Assembly (NCBI RefSeq): GCF_017301635.1
Contig: NZ_CP071091.1
Coordinates: 6,584,001 to 6,648,000 of the forward strand
Length of the DNA: 64,000 nt
Origin: Myxococcus landrumus
GTDB lineage: Bacteria; Myxococcota; Myxococcia; Myxococcales; Myxococcaceae
Direction of reading: 5' to 3'
In this document: piece by piece, positions 6,679 through 20,544 of the stretch
Layout of the letters: each line of letters opens with the position of its first letter
Numbering within the stretch: position 1 is the first letter of the stretch
Notes under the pieces: generated by a model
Seen by the model: the letters and a program-made list of their open reading frames with translations, nothing else
Database searches by the model: none
Told to the model about the DNA's origin: nothing
Position numbers and translations under genes: made by a program

Positions 6679-7788
6679 TCAGTCCACACGGACGAGGGAC
6701 GCCTCGCGCAGCCCTTCGTTCGCGCCGATGTCCACCACCAGGTAGTGGCGGCCCACGCCATCGAAGGTCTCCGGAATCGCTCCACCACCGCCGGAGATGA
6801 ACGCGGGGATGCCCGCGTTGGTGAAGGAGTAGTACGAGTGGATGTGGCCGTAGAGCGTGAGGTCCACGCCCTCTCGCGCGAGCTTGCCCACCAGTCCCGC
6901 GGACTCGCCCCGGTTCGCGAAGCCTCCGCCGCGCAGGCCCACCGGGTCCTGCGGTGGCACATGCATCGCCACCACGTGCGCGCCTTGCCTCGAGGACGAC
7001 AACCACCCGTCGAGCTGCTCCTCCACGATGGGGTCCAGCGTGCCGTTGCTGGAGTCCACCACCGTGAAGCGCACGTTCTGGAAGACGAAGCTCTGGCTGC
7101 CTCGGCCCACGAGCGAGGTGTACTCCTCCGCGTCCTTCGTGAAGGTCTCGTGGTTGCCCAGCGTGGCGTACAGCGGAATGCGCGAGCCCGCCTCCAGCCG
7201 CTCCTGGAACTCGAGCAACTCCTCGCGGGTGCCTCGCTCCGTGAGGTCTCCCGAGAAGAGGATGAAGCGCAGCGAGTCGTCCTTCGCCAGGCGCGCGTAG
7301 ATGTCTCCCACGCGGGGCAACGCCTCCTGCACGTCCGCGAGCGCGGCGAAGCGGAAGGGCGCGGACGAGTCCCAGTCCGGAGGCGCCACGCGCAACGTCG
7401 CCGAGCCTCCCGCGCGCAGCTCCACCCGCCACGCCTTCACCGTGGGCAGCGCCTGCGCCACGGGCTCCACGGGCAGTTCGTCGCCGGAGTCCGACTCCAC
7501 GAACAACTGCGCATCCGGCATCGCGTTGCGCACGGTGATGAACCACTGCCCGGGGGCGGATGCGCTCAGCGTGGTCTTCGCGGTGAAGACGGGGGCATTG
7601 CCCCAGAGCGTCACCTCGCCCGCGCCCAGGTGCCGCACCGCCGCGAGCCCGTCCTCCACCTGGAGCGACATGCCACCGCCCTGGGCCTGGCCCACCTTCG
7701 AGTCGCGCACCGCCCGGTTCTCCGCGGGCCGCAGGCATCCGGACAGCACCAACGCCAACAACACTCCCTGGGTGCCCACGCGAATCAC
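6679..7788 (-). CDS. Calcineurin-like metallophosphoesterase lipoprotein
   Basis: A 369-residue protein from a GTG start at 7788 preceded by GGAGGTGA. The N-terminus is a lipoprotein signal (lipobox LVLSGC, Cys18), so the enzyme is probably anchored in the envelope. After a beta-rich N-terminal domain (about 40-140), possibly a fibronectin/purple-acid-phosphatase-like module, the phosphoesterase motifs appear in order: ADVQ (151-154), GDLTERG (180-186), GNHE (211-214), MHVPP (about 280) and GHIHS (about 332). The first motif has Gln where DxH is usual, a variant also seen in some families; the other metal ligands are intact, so activity is plausible. The gene overlaps the upstream exported-protein gene by 4 bp, indicating translational coupling. 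Substrate unknown. Confidence 0.85.
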   Translation of the reverse strand: MIRVGTQGVLLALVLSGCLRPAENRAVRDSKVGQAQGGGMSLQVEDGLAAVRHLGAGEVTLWGNAPVFTAKTTLSASAPGQWFITVRNAMPDAQLFVESDSGDELPVEPVAQALPTVKAWRVELRAGGSATLRVAPPDWDSSAPFRFAALADVQEALPRVGDIYARLAKDDSLRFILFSGDLTERGTREELLEFQERLEAGSRIPLYATLGNHETFTKDAEEYTSLVGRGSQSFVFQNVRFTVVDSSNGTLDPIVEEQLDGWLSSSRQGAHVVAMHVPPQDPVGLRGGGFANRGESAGLVGKLAREGVDLTLYGHIHSYYSFTNAGIPAFISGGGGAIPETFDGVGRHYLVVDIGANEGLREASLVRVD

Positions 7789-9164
7789 GACTCACCTCCC
7801 AGCGCGTAGATGAGCGACAGCCGCCCGACGAGCGCACCACCCGCCGCCACCTCCGCGGCCACGCCCCACGTCTGCGTCAGGAGCGCGCGGCCCCGGAGAC
7901 CGAAGTTGCCCACGACGCCCCCGCCGAAGGTGCGCAGTCCGCCCGCGAAGCCGTCCTTGCGGTGGTCGTAGAAGATCATCGCCTCGCCCTTGAAGGGCCC
8001 GCCTCGCCCCAGCCACACGCCATAGCCGAAGCTGTACAGGAGCTGCTCATGCAGGTTCCCGTCACTCACCGGACCTGGATAGCTGTAGCCCTGGAGGGAC
8101 ATGCCGATGCTCGCCTCCGCGAAGGAGCCGGCCAATGAGGGGCTCACCCGGGACATGGCGAAGCGGCCTCGCAGGCCCACGTCTCCACCGATGACGATGA
8201 AGCCCTCCGTCGGGTAGCGGTGATAGAGGCCGTAGAGCTCCGCGTCGAGCGACGAGCCATCCGTGCCACCTCGCCGCTGCTCCGGCGCACCGAGCAGACG
8301 ATAGGCGCCGCCCAGTCGCACCTGCGCGTTGCCATCTTCCGGGGCCAGCCGCGCGGTGGCCTCCAGCTTCATCGCGTCCAGCCGAGCCACCGCGCCCAAC
8401 GCGACGAAGTGGTCGTAGTCGAACGAGGTGTCACTCACGTACTGGTAGCCCATCTCCAGCTCGAGCGGAGGCAAGGACGCCGCGGGAACTCCCGGGTCGA
8501 ACGTGGGCGAGACCACCGAGTACACATTGGCGAGCGCGGAGATGCCGAACACGCTGAAGCCCGCCAGCGTCACCGCGTAGAGCGGAGCAATCGTGCGCCG
8601 CGAAGCACCCGTGAGCGCGATGGGCACACCGCCGAGTGCGATGAGGCCAAGGCCCGTCCCCTCCATCGCGAACAAGCGCCGCGCGGTCTGCCCATCTCCC
8701 GCAATCGCTGGCGCGAGCCCGTGGAAGAGCAGGCCCGGCACGACGGAGACCGCGGCCGGCAACACCTGGAATGAGCGCGTCGCCCCCGCCGAGAGCTCCG
8801 TCTTCGCGGACGCAGGCGTCGACATCCCCCCCGAGACATCGGGAGGGGGTGCTCCGCCTTCGGTCAGCGCGGGCATCGGAGACACGAGCAGCACCTCGGC
8901 CGACGACGCCGCCTGCGCGCCTCCCACCATCGACGCATCGGACGACGCGGTCGGGTGGACCCGTCCGGGGACCTCCACCACGCCAGGACCCGACAGGTCA
9001 CGGGGGATGTCGCTCCCACCCAACTGGGGGCTGCGGATCAGCAACTCCAGGGCGGACAACCGCGCGCCCCCGTCCTGGGCCAGGGCAGGGACGGGCAGTG
9101 CGAGGCTCATCCACAGCACCACCCCGGTGAAGGGCCACGAGCGGCTGAACTGCTCGGACTCCAT
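7785..9164 (-). CDS. Exported protein of unknown function, coupled to the phosphoesterase
   Basis: A 459-residue protein. The start at 9164 is chosen over longer in-frame options because AGGGAG lies just upstream and it gives a clean signal peptide (hydrophobic VVLWMSLALPVPALA, cut after ALA). A Pro/Ser/Ala-rich middle precedes two hydrophobic segments around residues 160-220 (VVPGLLFHGLAPAIAG; LIALGGVPIAL; LYAVTLAGFSVFGISALA). The C-terminal half contains alternating polar/hydrophobic strands with aromatic residues (LEMGYQYVSDTSFDYDHFV, LDAELYGLYHRYP), resembling an outer-membrane or periplasmic beta-structure. I do not recognise a named family. It ends in a 4-bp overlap with the phosphoesterase start, so both are made from one mRNA. 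Confidence 0.65.
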   Translation of the reverse strand: MESEQFSRSWPFTGVVLWMSLALPVPALAQDGGARLSALELLIRSPQLGGSDIPRDLSGPGVVEVPGRVHPTASSDASMVGGAQAASSAEVLLVSPMPALTEGGAPPPDVSGGMSTPASAKTELSAGATRSFQVLPAAVSVVPGLLFHGLAPAIAGDGQTARRLFAMEGTGLGLIALGGVPIALTGASRRTIAPLYAVTLAGFSVFGISALANVYSVVSPTFDPGVPAASLPPLELEMGYQYVSDTSFDYDHFVALGAVARLDAMKLEATARLAPEDGNAQVRLGGAYRLLGAPEQRRGGTDGSSLDAELYGLYHRYPTEGFIVIGGDVGLRGRFAMSRVSPSLAGSFAEASIGMSLQGYSYPGPVSDGNLHEQLLYSFGYGVWLGRGGPFKGEAMIFYDHRKDGFAGGLRTFGGGVVGNFGLRGRALLTQTWGVAAEVAAGGALVGRLSLIYALGGES

Positions 9165-9545
9165 CGGTCTCCCTCTTTCTCTGGGGAAAGCTCGACCGCC
9201 CTCACCCCGCGGCCCGTGGCCGCGTCCGCCTAGATAACCGCCCTTTCTCCACATGCACCGCAGCCGACCGTGAAGAAATGTGAAGGAACCTGGCAGCGCC
9301 CCTGCGCTCCCCGACAACCCACTGAAATTACAAGCCACCTCGGAAGCAAATCCCCCGGACCCCGGACAATCCACTCCCATTGACGAATCATTCTGAGACC
9401 CACGGAGGCTCAGAGCGAGAGCGCCACGGAGGGAGGGGTTCGAATTCGACCTCACCAGAAACTTCGCCTGCGACGCGAGCCGTCTCCGGGACTTTCAGTA
9501 GAAGAGGAGTATGCTCGCTTTTTCCCATCATCCAGAGCTGGCCTT
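9165..9545. other. Divergent intergenic region (381 bp)
   Basis: This lies between the divergent exported-protein and kinase genes and must carry both promoters. It is less GC-rich than its surroundings, with stretches such as AAATTACAAG and AGAAATGTGAAGG. TTGACG near 9379 resembles a -35 element, but I see no matching -10 at the right spacing. No gene or strong inverted repeat was found. Confidence 0.5.
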
Positions 9546-12407
9546 TTGATCGTGGCGGAACCCACTCCCCAGACATTCGGCAAATACGTTCTTCTCTCGA
9601 AAATCGCCGCCGGCGGAATGGCGGTGACCTACCGCGCGCGGATGACGGGAGCGGCGGGCGTCACGAAGCCCTGTGTCATCAAGCAGATCCTCCCCCACTT
9701 CGTGGACGATGAGGACTTCGTCGAGATGTTCATCGGCGAGGCGCGGCTCGTGGCCAGCATGAGCCACAGCAACATCGCCCAGATTTTCGACTTCGGAGAG
9801 GTGGACGGGCAGTACTTCATCGCCATGGAGCTGGTGCAGGGCCAGCCGCTCTCGAAGGTCCTTCGCCGCGCGCAGCGCATGGGCATGGGCCTGTTCCCGG
9901 AGAGCCTGGCGCTGCACGTGGCCAGCAAGCTGTGCGACGGCCTGGACTACGCGCACCGCCACGTGGGCGAGGACGGCGTGGAGATGGGCCTGGTCCACCG
10001 CGACGTCTCGCCAGACAACGTCCTCATCTCCTACGAGGGCGAGGTCAAGGTCATCGACTTCGGCATCGCCAAGGCCACCAGCGCCGTGGAGGCCAAGACG
10101 TCGCCGGGCACCCTCAAGGGCAAGTACCCCTACTTCGCCCCGGAGCAGGCGCAGGGACGGCAGGACCTGGATGCCCGCACGGACGTGTACGCCGCGGGCG
10201 TCGTCCTCTACGAGATGATCTGCGGCAAGCGCCCCTACGAGGGCGAGTTCGTCACCGTCCTGCCCCGCATCCTCCAGGGCGACTGCCTGCCGCCGACGGC
10301 GCTCAACCCGTCGATGACGCAGGACCTGGAGAACGTCATCGCCCACGCGATGGCCGTGGACCGCGACGAGCGTTTCCAGACCGCCAAGGAGCTGAGCGCG
10401 TCGTTGGTGGAGCTGCTCTACCGGGACAATCCCCGCTTCACGCCGTCGGAGCTGTCGCAGCTCATGGCCTACCTCTTCGCCGAGGAGCTCACGGCGGAAG
10501 GCCGCAAGGCGGAGGTCACCCCCGCCTTCATGGAGCAGGTCGCCGCCTGGCAGTCGGGCGCGGTCGAGACGTCCCAGTCCCGCGCGCGGCCCCTGCGCCC
10601 CTCCAGCCCGGGCCTTCGCTCCAAGCCCGGCAGCGACGGCGGCGCGAAGCCTCCCTCCGACGGCGCGCGCCGCGCCTCCTCCGTGAGCAATCCGTCCATC
10701 CGCAAGGTGACGAGCACGGGGAGCCAGCGCCGCGTGACGAACACGGGCCTGCCTCGCGCCGAGGTCTCCAGCGCGGGCCGCAAGACGCTCACCAGCGAGC
10801 GCCCCGGGCCTCCCGTGCCGGAGCTGCCGGAAGAGCCCGACACCGACTCGAGCGACCTGGGCCAGGCGCTGATTCCCACCGCCGTCCCCTCGGCCGTGTC
10901 CACGCTGGCCGCGCCTCGGGATACCCCCGTGGAGAACCCCGTCGTCACCGCGCAGTCCGCGAAGACGCAGCCCGTGTCCTCGGGAATGGGGCGCACGTAC
11001 ACGGGCACGGGCCACCGCACGACGGCGGATGAAGCGCGCGAGACACTCGCGAAGGAAGAGGCCGAACAGAGGGCCCGGCAGCAGAAGGCCGTGAAGACGA
11101 TGAGCCTCTACGTCTTCGGCGTGGCCGCCTTCGCGCTGTTCGTCGCGCTCCTCTACCACTTCGTCATCAAGTCGGACGTGCCCGACACCGGCGCCGCCAA
11201 CGCCGCCACGCTGTGGGTCACCTCCACGCCCGCGGGCGCCAAGGTGAAGCTCAACGGCCGCGACGTCGCTGGCAAGACGCCCCTCATGGTCGAGGGCATC
11301 CTCGTGGGCGAGGCCAACACCCTGGTGCTCACGCTCCCGGGACACCTCGCGTGGACGCGGCGCTTCACGCCCGCCTCCATGATGCTGGAGCCCCTGAAGG
11401 CGGAGCTCCAACCCGTGCCTCCGTCCGAGCCCGCCAACCCTCCGCCCCCAAGTCCTCCGCCCGCCACGCCTCCGCCCGTCGTGGCCGCGGTCGCCACCGG
11501 CACCGCCGTCGAGCCCACCGTCGTCGAGGCCAAGGCCGTCGAGGTGGCCCCGAAGGAGGACGCGGGAGCCCCCCCCGTCGAGGACGCGGCCACCGAGGAC
11601 GCCGAGCCGAGCGAGGACCCCGTCCCCCTGGTGGAACGCAACAACAAGCAGATCAACGACGCGGAGCGCGAGTTCTACGAGGTGGACTACCCGACGCGGC
11701 TCCTGGTGGTGCGCCCCATGTACAACGCGGCGCTCATCCCCGAGTACACCACCGCCTCCATCGACCTGAACCCCAACGTCTCATACTCGGTATGGACGCA
11801 GGGCAGCGCGTCGCTCGGCGAGGGCAAAGGCACCGCCTCCGGCACGCTGGCCTACTTCATCGAGGGCGACGGCCCCGCCGACAGCAGCTTCGGCCTCTTG
11901 AGTGCGTCGGCGCGCACCATCAAGAACGCGCGCAAGCTGCACGTCTTCGCGGTGGACGAGACGGGGCCCGAGGACAACAGCGGCTCCATCCACGTCGTCG
12001 TCCGCCAGTCCGCCTACGTGCCGCCGCGCTCGCTCGTGTTCGATGCGCAGCAGCACGCCGTGCAGCTCAAGCCCGAGCAACAGGTGCTGCTGCGCGGCCT
12101 CAACCCGCGCGCCACGTACCTGTTCACCGTGCGGGACGACATCGCGGAGCTGCGCCCGGGAGCCAATGGCCGCGTGCAGCAGGTCCTGTGCATCGAGCGC
12201 GGCACGTCGCCCGCGTCGGTGCGCGCCACGCACCGCATCCTCGAGACGGGCAAGCGCTACCAGATTACCGGCGCCGAGGACCTGCGCTGCTTCTTCCCGG
12301 ACGCGCAGCAGGGCGACAACCAGGGTGCCCTGGAGATGGACATCGTGGACACCACCTCGCTGTCTCGAAAAGAGCGCGCGGCCGCCCTCCGAGGCTCACG
12401 CCGCTAG
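9546..12407 (+). CDS. Transmembrane Ser/Thr protein kinase with PEGA domain
   Basis: A 953-residue eukaryotic-like kinase. The start is TTG 9546, or GTG 9552 two codons later; neither has a strong ribosome-binding site. The kinase domain (about 12-290) keeps the essential residues: glycine loop AAGGMA, Lys46 (VIKQIL), Glu65, catalytic HRD at 151-153 in HRDVSPDN, and DFG at 171-173. HRDVSPDN in place of HRDLKPEN is frequent in myxobacterial kinases. A Ser/Pro/Arg-rich juxtamembrane stretch (about 330-500) offers many phosphorylation sites. One transmembrane helix follows at about 518-540, then an extracytoplasmic PEGA domain (STPAGAKVKLNGRDV), a Pro/Glu-rich linker and a C-terminal region of unknown fold. 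It likely senses an envelope signal. Confidence 0.92.
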   Translation: MIVAEPTPQTFGKYVLLSKIAAGGMAVTYRARMTGAAGVTKPCVIKQILPHFVDDEDFVEMFIGEARLVASMSHSNIAQIFDFGEVDGQYFIAMELVQGQPLSKVLRRAQRMGMGLFPESLALHVASKLCDGLDYAHRHVGEDGVEMGLVHRDVSPDNVLISYEGEVKVIDFGIAKATSAVEAKTSPGTLKGKYPYFAPEQAQGRQDLDARTDVYAAGVVLYEMICGKRPYEGEFVTVLPRILQGDCLPPTALNPSMTQDLENVIAHAMAVDRDERFQTAKELSASLVELLYRDNPRFTPSELSQLMAYLFAEELTAEGRKAEVTPAFMEQVAAWQSGAVETSQSRARPLRPSSPGLRSKPGSDGGAKPPSDGARRASSVSNPSIRKVTSTGSQRRVTNTGLPRAEVSSAGRKTLTSERPGPPVPELPEEPDTDSSDLGQALIPTAVPSAVSTLAAPRDTPVENPVVTAQSAKTQPVSSGMGRTYTGTGHRTTADEARETLAKEEAEQRARQQKAVKTMSLYVFGVAAFALFVALLYHFVIKSDVPDTGAANAATLWVTSTPAGAKVKLNGRDVAGKTPLMVEGILVGEANTLVLTLPGHLAWTRRFTPASMMLEPLKAELQPVPPSEPANPPPPSPPPATPPPVVAAVATGTAVEPTVVEAKAVEVAPKEDAGAPPVEDAATEDAEPSEDPVPLVERNNKQINDAEREFYEVDYPTRLLVVRPMYNAALIPEYTTASIDLNPNVSYSVWTQGSASLGEGKGTASGTLAYFIEGDGPADSSFGLLSASARTIKNARKLHVFAVDETGPEDNSGSIHVVVRQSAYVPPRSLVFDAQQHAVQLKPEQQVLLRGLNPRATYLFTVRDDIAELRPGANGRVQQVLCIERGTSPASVRATHRILETGKRYQITGAEDLRCFFPDAQQGDNQGALEMDIVDTTSLSRKERAAALRGSRR

Positions 12408-12732
12408 CAGCCCCAAGGAGCACGCCCACGGACAGACAGCCGGACGAGCCATCCGGCCTGCTTGTTCCACGAGCCTCCACCAGCACCTCTCGCCCGGAGG
12501 CCCGCCCCACGTGGGCCACCGGGTGCCTAACCTTCCGTTGTCACACCCCTCACGGGCTCGGCCCTCTCAGGATGGACAGGCGAGTGGGCGAGGCGATGAC
12601 TGGTTCCCGCCGTAAGGGCTCATGGGGCCGCGAAGCTCCTCGGCCGGCTCGACAAGACGGGAAAGGCACGTGGGCGCGGGGCCGAGGATGGGCACCGGGC
12701 CCACGAGTCTTTTCAACGCGGCGCAGGGCGCC
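12408..12732. other. Convergent intergenic region (325 bp), no gene recognised
   Basis: This lies between the kinase stop and the end of the PaiB-like gene. It has a short stem-loop near its left end (12439-12457). Open frames crossing it lack ribosome-binding sites and family resemblance. Nothing else recognisable. Confidence 0.5.
12439..12457 (+). terminator. Stem-loop 31 nt after the kinase stop
   Basis: GCCGGA (12439-12444) and TCCGGC (12452-12457) form a perfect 6-bp stem with a 7-nt loop. The position fits a 3' end for the kinase mRNA, though no T-tract follows. Confidence 0.4.
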
Positions 12733-17426: not shown

Positions 17427-18248
17427 TCAGCGCAGCGCTTCCAGCTCCTCCAGCGCCGCCAGCACCTGCGCGGGCTGCCGGGCCTCGTCCAGACGCTCCG
17501 CCAGCCCTCGCGCCGCCAGCCGGGCCACATGGGCCATGCGGATGAGCCGCACGCGGCCCCGCTCGCCGTCCACCGCCGCCACCACGAGGCGCAGCGGACG
17601 GCCGTCCGGCGTGTCCACCTTCAGCCCCTTCGCCAGCGTCACCAGCGCCACCACCGACGGCACGCCCGGCAGGAAGACATGGGGCACCGCCACCCCGCCG
17701 CCCACCGCGCACGAGGACAGGTCGTCGAGCTTGCTCAAGCCCTCCACCAGCCGCGCCGTGTCCACGCCCGGCAGGGCCGCCGCGAGCCGGCCCGCCACCA
17801 CGTCCAGCACGTCCTCCCAGCCGCCGCAGGAGACCTGGAGCACCACCCGCTCCGGCGCCAGCAGCGGCGCGAGCGCCGGCACCGGCGCGTCCCCGTGCGT
17901 GCCGCCCCTCACCGGGAACTCCGCGTCCAGGAAGTCGCGGACGCGGGCGAGCTGCGCGCCCGTCAGACGGCGGCGCGCCAGCTCCAGGAAGAGCGTGCCG
18001 GAGCCCGGCACGTCCTCCAGGTACTCGGCGACATAGGGGCTCACCCGGTTCGCCACGTCCATCAGCAGCGCGGGCGGCACATCCAGCTCGCGAGCAATGG
18101 CCGTCAGCCGCTCCACCGTGGGCGGCGCGTCCACGCCGTTCTCCACCCGGCTCAGGTACGCGCTCGACACGCCGATGCGGCGGGCCAAATCCCGGAGGGA
18201 CAGCCCCGCGTCCACCCGCAACAGCCGCAGTGTGGCCCCCAGGTGCAT
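17427..18248 (-). CDS. XRE-type HTH regulator fused to a PTS EIIA(Ntr)-like domain
   Basis: A 273-residue two-domain protein. Residues 1-60 are an XRE helix-turn-helix (LRLLRVDAGLSLRDLARRIG, VSSAYLSRVENG). After a helical linker, residues about 125-270 match the PTS EIIA type 2 / PtsN fold, including the active-site region SCAVGGGVAVPH with His190 at the phosphorylatable position. PtsN in proteobacteria senses PEP/nitrogen status and controls potassium transporters by its phosphorylation state. Here the same kind of sensor sits on a DNA-binding domain, and the gene starts 5 bp after a CPA2 antiporter gene on the same strand. I infer a transcription factor that couples PTS phosphorylation to antiporter expression, probably autoregulatory. 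Confidence 0.82.
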   Translation of the reverse strand: MHLGATLRLLRVDAGLSLRDLARRIGVSSAYLSRVENGVDAPPTVERLTAIARELDVPPALLMDVANRVSPYVAEYLEDVPGSGTLFLELARRRLTGAQLARVRDFLDAEFPVRGGTHGDAPVPALAPLLAPERVVLQVSCGGWEDVLDVVAGRLAAALPGVDTARLVEGLSKLDDLSSCAVGGGVAVPHVFLPGVPSVVALVTLAKGLKVDTPDGRPLRLVVAAVDGERGRVRLIRMAHVARLAARGLAERLDEARQPAQVLAALEELEALR

Positions 18249-18253
18249 GGCAT

Positions 18254-20410
18254 TCAGCTCCTCGTCGCCACCGCCGAAGACACCGGCTCGGGCTCCGACT
18301 CCGTCGCGGCCTCCGCCACGGGCTCCGACTCATGCACGACCAGCAGCGAGCCCGGCGCGTCGCGGACGATGCGCTCGCGGTGGAGGCCGAACAGCCGGTC
18401 CTCCAGGCCCCACTGCGCGCCCATGCCCACCACCACCAGGTCGTAGCCGCCCTGGCGGACCTCCTCGAGCGCGGCGTCCTCGGGCGTCTCGCTGCGCACG
18501 ACCTTCAGCCGCACGCCGGGCCCTTCCGTCGAGGGGAACAGCTCCTCCACCTGCGCCCGCGCGTTGTTGCCCTCGCGCGACGTCACATGCAGCACCGTGA
18601 CCTCCGCGCCCGCGTGCTTCATCAGCCGGCGCGCCAGCTTCAGCGCCGCCCGGTCATGCCGGCTGCCGATGAAGGGCACCAGCACGCGCTTCACGTCCGT
18701 GAAGCCCCGGTCCACCAGCACCGCCACGGTGCCGGACGCGGCGCTCATCACCTCGTGCACCGTGCCACCGAGCACCGTCTGGCTGAACAGCGGCTTGTGC
18801 CAGCCCAGCAGCACCAGGTCCGCGCGCTTCGCCTGCGCCGTGCGGCAGATGTCCTGCGCGGGCTCCGTCGACACGAAGGAGAGGGGCCGCACCGCCAACC
18901 CCAGGCTCCCGGCCCGGCCCAAAAGCGGCGCGAGCACGCCGTCGCCCTCCGGCTCCACGTCCGGAGCCAGGGCGTCCGGCTCCGCGCCGCGCAGCGACAC
19001 GCGCTCCGGATGCACCAGGTGCAGGGCGTGGAGCTGCGAGGCGTCGCCCCCCGCGGACAGCGCCTTGGCCAGGCTGGCCATGCCCGGCCCCGCCTGCTGG
19101 TGGGAGATGCACATCAGCATCGAGTAGGGCGGCACCGCGCCTTGCGCGGGCGGAGACTCGAACGTCACCCGGTCCATCGCCAGCTCCTCGGTGGGATAGA
19201 ACCACCGCAAGAGCGGCGTGGTCATGAACGTGGTCACCAGCGCCATCAACACCATCATCGTGAAGAGCGTGGGCGAGATGACGCCCAGGTCCAGCCCCAT
19301 GTTCAGGACGATGAGCTCCATCAACCCGCGCGTGTTCATCAGGACGCCGACGGCCCCCGCCTCGCGCCAGCGCATGCCCGTCATCCGCGCCGCCACCGCG
19401 CTGCCGCCGAACTTGCCCAGACAGGCCAGCAGGATGATGACCGCGCACGTCACCCAGGCCTCGGGCGTGTTGAGCAGGCCAATCTGCGTGCGCAGGCCGC
19501 TGAAGGCGAAGAAGACGGGCAGCAGCAGCACCACCGCCACGTCCTCCAGCTTCTCCGCCAGCGCCTCCGCGAGCCCGCCCTCCTTGGGGATGACGGCGCC
19601 GAAGAGGAAGGCCCCGAAGAGGGCGTGGATGCCGATGAGCTCCGTCGCCCACGCGGACGCGAGCAGGAGCAGCAGCGTGCCGGCCACCACGTTCTGCGTC
19701 AGGCCCTCCCGGCTCGCCACGCGCGCACCGAGCCGCGCGAGGAACGGCCGCACCACCAGCAGCATGAAGACGATGTAGCCCATGGCGAGCAGCGTGGTGA
19801 GCCCCGCGTGCATCAGGTCCGAGGCCCGGACGATGGACACCACGAAGGCGAGCAGGCACCACGCCGTGACGTCATCCACCGCCGCGCACGTAATCGCGAT
19901 GGCCCCCACGCGCGACTGCAACAGCCCCCGCTCCGTGAGGATGCGCGCGAGCACCGGGAACGCGGTGATGCTCATCGACACGCCCATGAAGAGCACGAAC
20001 GAGGAGAAGGGGACGCTCGGGTCCGAGAAGTCCCGGTAGAGCCAGAGCGCCGCCGCCGCCGCGCCCAGCGCGAAGGGCACCACGATGCTCGTGTGGCTGA
20101 TGGCCACCGACGCGTGGCCGCGCCCCTTCAAGAGCCTCGGGTCCAGCTCCAACCCGATGAGGAACATGAACAGCACCAGTCCCACCTGGCTGAGCATGGT
20201 CAGCGCCGGCATCGAGCTGGGCGGGAACAGCGTGTTCATCAGGTCCGGCGCGAGCCACCCCAGGAGAGACGGGCCGAGCACGATGCCCGCCACCACCTCC
20301 GCGATGACCAACGGTTGCCCCAGCCAGCGCGTCCCACGCCCTATCAGCCGAGACACGCCGATGATGACGATGAGCTGCACCAGCAGCAGCGTGAGCGCGT
20401 TGGCGTGCAT
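18254..20410 (-). CDS. CPA2-type cation/proton antiporter with C-terminal UspA domains
   Basis: A 718-residue protein. Residues 1 to about 395 form a 12-13 helix Na+/H+ or K+/H+ exchanger domain of the Kef/CPA2 type; family features include VAGIVLGPSLLG, FLIGLELD and the ion-site region AAVDDVTAW with adjacent Asp residues. Residues about 430-700 hold two UspA-like domains (LMCISHQQAGPGM; ADLVLLGWHK; VKRVLVPFIGSRHD; YDLVVVGMG), the second with a G-x2-G-x9-G(S/T)-like nucleotide site. It lacks the TrkA-N/RCK domain of KefB/KefC, so gating is likely by UspA. ATG 20410 has GGAGGT upstream. The first gene of a two-gene operon with the XRE-EIIA regulator; a perfect palindrome lies 27 bp upstream. 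Confidence 0.9.
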   Translation of the reverse strand: MHANALTLLLVQLIVIIGVSRLIGRGTRWLGQPLVIAEVVAGIVLGPSLLGWLAPDLMNTLFPPSSMPALTMLSQVGLVLFMFLIGLELDPRLLKGRGHASVAISHTSIVVPFALGAAAAALWLYRDFSDPSVPFSSFVLFMGVSMSITAFPVLARILTERGLLQSRVGAIAITCAAVDDVTAWCLLAFVVSIVRASDLMHAGLTTLLAMGYIVFMLLVVRPFLARLGARVASREGLTQNVVAGTLLLLLASAWATELIGIHALFGAFLFGAVIPKEGGLAEALAEKLEDVAVVLLLPVFFAFSGLRTQIGLLNTPEAWVTCAVIILLACLGKFGGSAVAARMTGMRWREAGAVGVLMNTRGLMELIVLNMGLDLGVISPTLFTMMVLMALVTTFMTTPLLRWFYPTEELAMDRVTFESPPAQGAVPPYSMLMCISHQQAGPGMASLAKALSAGGDASQLHALHLVHPERVSLRGAEPDALAPDVEPEGDGVLAPLLGRAGSLGLAVRPLSFVSTEPAQDICRTAQAKRADLVLLGWHKPLFSQTVLGGTVHEVMSAASGTVAVLVDRGFTDVKRVLVPFIGSRHDRAALKLARRLMKHAGAEVTVLHVTSREGNNARAQVEELFPSTEGPGVRLKVVRSETPEDAALEEVRQGGYDLVVVGMGAQWGLEDRLFGLHRERIVRDAPGSLLVVHESEPVAEAATESEPEPVSSAVATRS

Positions 20411-20436
20411 CCTACCTCCGTCGAAGACGTGCGTGT

Positions 20437-20450
20437 TAAGTGGGCACTTA
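20437..20450. promoter_or_regulatory. Perfect palindrome upstream of the antiporter operon (candidate operator)
   Basis: TAAGTG-GG-CACTTA, two perfect 6-bp arms around a 2-bp centre, sits 27-40 bp upstream of the antiporter ATG. It is AT-richer than its surroundings and has the size expected for a dimeric XRE-family operator. The regulator encoded second in the operon is the obvious candidate to bind it; that is inference. Confidence 0.55.
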
Positions 20451-20544
20451 CCAGCCCGCCTCGCGGGGCGTCAAACATCCATTACGCCCGCCTGCCCTCC
20501 CAACCCGTGCCTGTTGTTGGAGACCCGGCAGTGCGGGCGCGTGC

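Follow-up and report, generated by a model that had tools for sequence, protein, structure and literature searches.

A candidate autoregulated operon pairing a CPA2-Usp antiporter with an XRE-EIIA(Ntr)-like regulator in Myxococcus landrumus and its relatives

A cation/proton antiporter gene in the genome of Myxococcus landrumus is followed by a gene for a protein in which a helix-turn-helix (HTH) is fused to a domain resembling EIIA(Ntr), the PtsN protein of the PTS. This raises the question of whether the second protein controls the first and, if it does, whether the PTS supplies the signal. A sequence-only reading of the window, the whole 64,000-nucleotide stretch of DNA that was analyzed (G000, C1:6584001-6648000, in a 10.37-Mb genome on one contig), had proposed direct transcriptional, and perhaps posttranslational, control of ion exchange with the nitrogen PTS as the controller. 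The features that bear on these proposals are listed in Table 1.

Table 1. Features of the operon, its upstream region, and the PTS genes elsewhere in the genome
Feature	Position	Strand	Basis or remark
CPA2 cation/proton antiporter, C-terminal Usp-like region, 718 aa	18254..20410	(-)	Pfam Na_H_Exchanger + Usp; NapA 4bwz; DD motif D179-D180
XRE-type HTH + EIIA(Ntr)-like fusion regulator, 273 aa	17427..18248	(-)	Pfam HTH_3/HTH_31 + PTS_EIIA_2; PDB profile search
Codon of His190, counterpart of phosphorylated His73 in E. coli EIIA(Ntr)	17679..17681	(-)	Arithmetic from ORF start 18248; alignment
20-bp palindrome TGGTAAGTGCCCACTTAACA, candidate regulator operator, overlaps -10 region	20434..20453	(-)	Phylogenetic footprint
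-35-like hexamer TTGACG, 18 bp upstream of TAAG half-site	20469..20474	(-)	Sequence
EIIA1-HPr-EI fusion, single open frame	G000:C1:8009503-8012085 (L024 4504-7086)		
Two EIIA type-2 proteins in succession	G000:C1:6712185-6713294 (L006, L023)		Both with R, His, His at active-site positions
PtsN, HPF-like, and RpoN-like genes	Locus L022: PtsN 6935-7444, HPF-like 8543-9277, RpoN-like 11057-12574		HPF-like and RpoN-like named by eye

The regulator gene lies downstream of the antiporter gene with 5 bp (18249-18253) between them. Both reading frames are open, with third-position GC values of 0.97 for the antiporter and 0.95 for the regulator. The antiporter matches the Pfam families Na_H_Exchanger (1.6e-61) and Usp (1.6e-21), and no RCK domain appears among the Pfam families listed at E values up to 1, in agreement with the initial description of a CPA2 antiporter whose cytoplasmic part is UspA-like rather than RCK. 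The Na_H_Exchanger transmembrane domain and the DD motif both place the protein in CPA2, although the NCBIfam CPA2 model 2a37 scored 147.8 bits, under its cut-off of 238.3, which counts against this assignment. By sequence, the nearest solved antiporter is NapA (4bwz; 8.8e-21, with a match that spans residues 27-404 only). The DD of the window antiporter aligns with that of the 4bwz chain and is identical in all 58 antiporter copies aligned (the window and 57 loci, with L105, L106, and L120 left out). The window antiporter thus resembles NapA in its CPA2-type transmembrane region and differs from it in having an additional Usp tail.

In the regulator, the Pfam families HTH_31 and HTH_3 match residues 2 to 62 (approximately 5e-15), as is characteristic of an XRE/Cro-CI HTH, and PTS_EIIA_2 matches residues 129 to 268 with 32.2 bits (cut-off, 27); PRD is absent among the Pfam domains listed. 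The HTH matches the N-terminal domains of SinR, ClgR, and CapH, its residues 30 to 36 do not vary among the 60 copies that include them, and PADLOC matches on the protein were to the HTH only. A Myxococcus species provides the best named match to the regulator (90% identity). For a profile of the regulator EIIA domains, 24 were chosen from the 61 that were found, and this profile recovered solved PtsN structures (1.2e-18) and E. coli EIIA(Ntr), 1a6j (1e-15). Because the profile of the family finds PtsN structures, the EIIA domain is, at the level of sequence comparison, real, and the ORFs, Pfam, and this profile match together uphold the original description of an HTH-EIIA(Ntr) fusion encoded 5 bp behind the antiporter. 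Structure prediction, which had been proposed as a check on the EIIA half, gave a poor AlphaFold model of the regulator (12 aligned orthologs; mean pLDDT of 55.8, approximately 33 to 52 from residue 171 on), which adds little, and the EIIA assignment relies on the sequence profiles, which do support the fold. With this poor model as the query, a structure search returned nothing at E values up to 0.001; HTH proteins dominated the list, and PtsN 3urr stood at rank 26 (E of 0.028).

The pairing of the two genes was followed across the phylum. A full-length or nearly full-length regulator was found in 61 of the 195 phylum genomes searched, all 61 of them in the window's own family; 60 of these loci were fetched (L063-L122), and the window is the 61st. 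One fetched locus, L120, is truncated where its contig stops and does not enter the pairing count. The regulator stands directly behind such an antiporter in every one of the 60 copies with upstream sequence (59 loci and the window), on the same strand and separated from it by -1 to 99 bp in 55 of the 60 fetched loci; in L105-L108, a second antiporter copy lies 10 to 46 bp upstream of the regulator. The two antiporter copies of these four loci are arranged in tandem before the regulator in L107 and L108 and flank it on both sides in L105 and L106. A pairing produced by chance, or by genes that merely hitch-hike together with no functional linkage, might seem compatible with the gyrB-PH-GNAT neighborhood that closer relatives have in common with the window. 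However, the pair is kept in 19 loci (L103-L119, L121, and L122) in which gyrB, PH, and GNAT neighbors were not found, five of them retaining a weak response-regulator match. Furthermore, G121, G133, and G064 have neither gene and G065 has no regulator and only a 40% antiporter paralog, though the genera of these four genomes mostly have the pair (25 of 27 and 4 of 6 genomes). Coincidence can hardly be credited in light of these observations, and, as read from gene order, the pairing of antiporter and regulator is not a matter of chance.

The regulator is sparse in genera g4 (1 of 6 genomes) and g26 (1 of 9), and 13 genomes, G065 among them, contain an antiporter homolog without a regulator, mostly matching in the transmembrane part only (E up to 1e-60). 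A pattern scan of genome contigs gave 12 loci, 11 of which represent the regulator beside gyrB; scan locus L020 was rejected as an XRE-EIIA fusion, being an ordinary 154-aa EIIA without an HTH. Plasmid records yielded 13 regulator matches, all within residues 1 to 111 and none covering the EIIA domain. The neighbor survey that the sequence-only reading had called for therefore has as its scope the 195 phylum genomes, the genome contigs, and the plasmid records, and the restriction of the regulator to one family holds within that scope. One record carrying the locus is titled Comamonas sp. KCTC 72670 (L010); its gyrB is 88% identical to that of the window, and it is probably a mislabeled myxobacterium.

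A candidate site of action lies upstream of the antiporter, where the sequence reads TTGACG-N18-TAAGTGCCCACTTA. Across the family, the palindrome has the consensus TGNTAAG-N6-CTTANCR. When the upstream regions of the best-matching antiporter copies were compared (60 regions, from 59 loci and the window), 59 contained its core, TAAG-N6-CTTA, the sole exception, L122, having an N7 form. TAAG, CTTA, and the C two bases after CTTA are invariant in the 59 sites, the spacer and flanks vary, and 56 of the sites have a TTGAC that precedes TAAG by 17 or 18 bp. Of the two antiporter copies in L105 and L106, the one adjoining the regulator lacks a palindrome, and the site precedes the other. The 60 loci (634,743 bases) contain 58 N6 forms, one for each locus that bears the site upstream of the antiporter; spacings of 0 to 5 and 7 to 14 between TAAG and CTTA gave one match in total. 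When the half-site was permuted over the same bases, the 11 permutations other than TAAG (58) gave 0 to 3 occurrences, except for ATGA. This control, ATGA-N6-TCAT, occurs 31 times in L063-L122, well above the other permutations.

The full form, TGNTAAGN6CTTANCR, is present in 60 of the 96 family genomes. Among the 61 that have the regulator it was found in 59, and among the 35 that lack it in 1 (G072); G069 and G154, the deepest regulator-bearing genomes, do not have the full 20-bp form. It occurs at one place only in 53 of the 59 regulator-bearing genomes that have it. A backwards control pattern had at least one match in 16 of the 96 genomes, and single extra sites can therefore be due to chance. 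In the window genome, TAAGN6CTTAAC had 1 match versus 2 control matches, and TAAGN6CTTA was found at 2 places versus 18 control matches per strand. The rarity of the palindrome in this genome is thus not significant by itself, and in this comparison of sequences it is the conservation and the match with the presence of the regulator that carry weight. The second core in the window genome, at 5514325, has no TG/CA flanks and was treated as unrelated to the regulator. TAAGN6CTTA was found in none of 14 antiporter loci without an adjoining regulator, a control set that is mostly distant, with most matches lacking the Usp part and with the upstream side of L130 cut (14 fetched of 19 places; G027, G033, G040, and the G092 and G093 paralogs left out). 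One solo antiporter locus, L126, has TAAG-N8-CTTA approximately 700 bp upstream. Close antiporter orthologs and the regulator are gained and lost together, so the antiporter partly confounds the association between palindrome and regulator.

The palindrome is likely to be the operator of the regulator, for which it is the best candidate in the sequence. XRE repressors of the SinR and ClgR kind have an inverted-repeat site over the promoter, as is the case in this operon; the regulator resembles them in its matching HTH and differs from them in that its second domain is EIIA-like. We also considered that the regulator may be an activator or have another target, the palindrome being the site of another protein or simply a conserved promoter. 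TGNTAAG does resemble an extended -10, and, with the TTGAC at its usual distance, part of the conservation may be that of a promoter. A promoter alone, however, has no need of the downstream half, CTTA[AT]C, which lies past the -10 and is as invariant as the upstream half. The palindrome also tracks the regulator across genomes, and a site that spans the -10 would suit repression more than activation. We consider this explanation rather improbable. The predicted transcriptional control of the antiporter by the XRE-EIIA protein, one part of the sequence-only reading, is well supported because the pairing is conserved, the palindrome lies over the promoter, and presence and absence match.

The nature of the signal is a separate matter. 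The sequence-only reading had named two ways in which it could fail, namely, an EIIA domain without fold support and a genome without PTS phosphorelay genes; the domain profile matches PtsN structures, as described above, and the genome encodes two HPr domains, two EI domains, and a separate PtsN, one HPr and one EI being fused in one protein. HPr and EI adjoin genes resembling a mannose-type PTS (named by eye). The EIIA1-HPr-EI fusion probably belongs to an amino-sugar PTS; the ORF before it resembles a sugar-phosphate-binding (SIS) protein (by eye). It is the separate PtsN, and not the regulator gene, that occupies the rpoN-hpf neighborhood. The nitrogen PTS (PtsP-NPr-PtsN) is defined by an EI with an N-terminal GAF domain (PMC2405797). 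A GAF domain was found (E up to 1e-4) neither on the EI that stands alone nor on the EIIA1-HPr-EI fusion, and a strict PtsP-type nitrogen PTS was therefore not found. The proposed genome search for PtsP and NPr thus recovered HPr, EI, and PtsN and no GAF-bearing EI, and control of the operon by a "nitrogen PTS" is doubtful.

A rival explanation, along the lines of the sequence-only reading, is that the PTS phosphorelay phosphorylates His190 and in this way acts directly on the regulator, so that ion exchange would follow the state of the PTS. The HPr and EI domains and the PtsN just described could provide such a relay, and the histidine that had been pointed out as phosphorylatable, in the motif VAVPH, is present in the window regulator and aligns with His73 of E. 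coli EIIA(Ntr). It is kept in 53 of the 61 orthologs and not in all, being replaced in 8 by Tyr (L093 and L094), Arg (L115-L118), Cys (L121), or Phe (L122). The pairing is intact in all eight of these loci, and the N6 palindrome core is present in seven. A FastTree phylogeny of 60 sequences (rooted on L122, with the truncated L120 left out) requires a minimum of four switches between His and a different residue, with the direction open and supports not weighed; as both of its deepest sequences are non-His, one change may have been a gain. In E. coli EIIA(Ntr), the active site is supported by R57 and H120 (numbering counted on 1a6j). Their equivalents in the window regulator are Leu174 and Arg234, and across the regulator family the R57 equivalent is R in 48 of 61 sequences and the H120 equivalent is H in 8 of 61. 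By comparison, the equivalents of R57, His73, and H120 are all kept in 21 of 21 PtsN proteins (20 fetched from relatives and the window genome's own), and both tandem EIIA proteins likewise have R, H, and H. The replaced histidines in intact operons, the altered supporting positions, and the absence of a GAF domain from both EI proteins argue against the phosphorelay as controller, and we regard it as unlikely. Judging from the orthologs, phosphorylation of His190 may take place where the His remains and cannot be a general requirement. The EIIA-like domain is best read as a repurposed sensor, that is, a signal or protein-contact module.

We therefore favor, with somewhat better than even confidence, a self-contained repressor-antiporter operon that would be autoregulated and in which the EIIA-like domain would act as a signal module whose phosphorylation is not essential. 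The DNA itself shows the two genes, how they are paired, and a palindrome that goes with the regulator; from these we infer that the XRE-EIIA protein binds the 20-bp palindrome spanning the antiporter -10, probably as a dimer. The position of the palindrome over the -10 suggests that the bound protein would repress the operon rather than activate it and would thereby set the amount of antiporter and so of Na+/H+ or K+/H+ exchange. An ion- or energy-related cue acting through the EIIA-like domain would alter DNA binding; ion, pH, or osmotic state is our guess for this cue, drawn from the target genes. Phosphorylation of the His by HPr could be one input where the His survives without being essential to the system as a whole.

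DNA-binding regulators with PTS-type domains are known in LevR and MtlR, which have PRD modules and sugar-gene targets. The regulator described here is like them in being a DNA-binding protein read via a PTS-type domain; it differs in that no PRD is listed for it and that its target is an ion antiporter. In E. coli, YcgO, a K+/H+ antiporter, is inhibited when unphosphorylated PtsN binds to its tail (PMC11808508); TrkA, YcgO, and KdpD are named as PtsN partners in a 2026 review (PMC13104625). In both systems, a monovalent cation/proton antiporter whose cytoplasmic tail is regulatory goes together with a domain of the EIIA(Ntr) type. YcgO is a CPA1 protein with putative RCK and CorC tail domains that is controlled by contact with unphosphorylated PtsN, whereas the antiporter here is of the CPA2-Usp type, an HTH shares one protein with the EIIA domain, and the sequence points to a transcriptional link. 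By analogy, posttranslational control through contact with the antiporter is possible. In its more elaborate form, the EIIA-like domain would dock on the Usp tail as unphosphorylated PtsN does on YcgO, so that the protein would be both a repressor and a transporter-bound inhibitor or sensor and the antiporter would sequester its own repressor with no involvement of PTS phosphorylation. We consider this a slim prospect; if it were true, the operon would read its own transporter.

No paper on the XRE-EIIA regulator or the operon was found among the matches listed in a search of open-licence literature (titles and the starts of abstracts). A 2013 survey of M. xanthus transporters reports, in its available text, five members of CPA2 and a single PTS sugar transporter, and that text does not mention an XRE-EIIA regulator (PMC3924187). 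The parts are each of a known kind, and it is their combination, together with the candidate operator, that was not found in that literature among the matches listed. Here a PTS-type EIIA domain and ion exchange would be connected through DNA, far from the enterobacteria in which PtsN and potassium have been studied. That the domain keeps its place while its phosphorylation site varies among orthologs bears on whether such domains serve as a phosphate relay or as a contact module. With one regulator, one antiporter, and one operator-like site in most genomes, the system is small and testable.

Full-form palindromes beyond the antiporter sites occur in seven genomes, and for any single one of them chance is possible. 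One is in G072, the genome without the regulator; in G061 the palindrome lies behind a PLD-domain gene, in G077 and G081 it adjoins a B12-binding-domain gene (the domain was searched in G077 only), and in G099 it lies behind, not before, a Na_H_Exchanger gene. In G063 (L161 3372-3391) it stands just before a GT20 gene, probably for trehalose-6-phosphate synthase, with no clear -35, which gives a hint of an osmotic link. In G116 (L162 3124-3166), a second palindrome with TTGACA 18 bp upstream directly precedes another Na_H_Exchanger gene. This gene is possibly a second target of the regulator, and such a site would fit a regulator of ion exchange.
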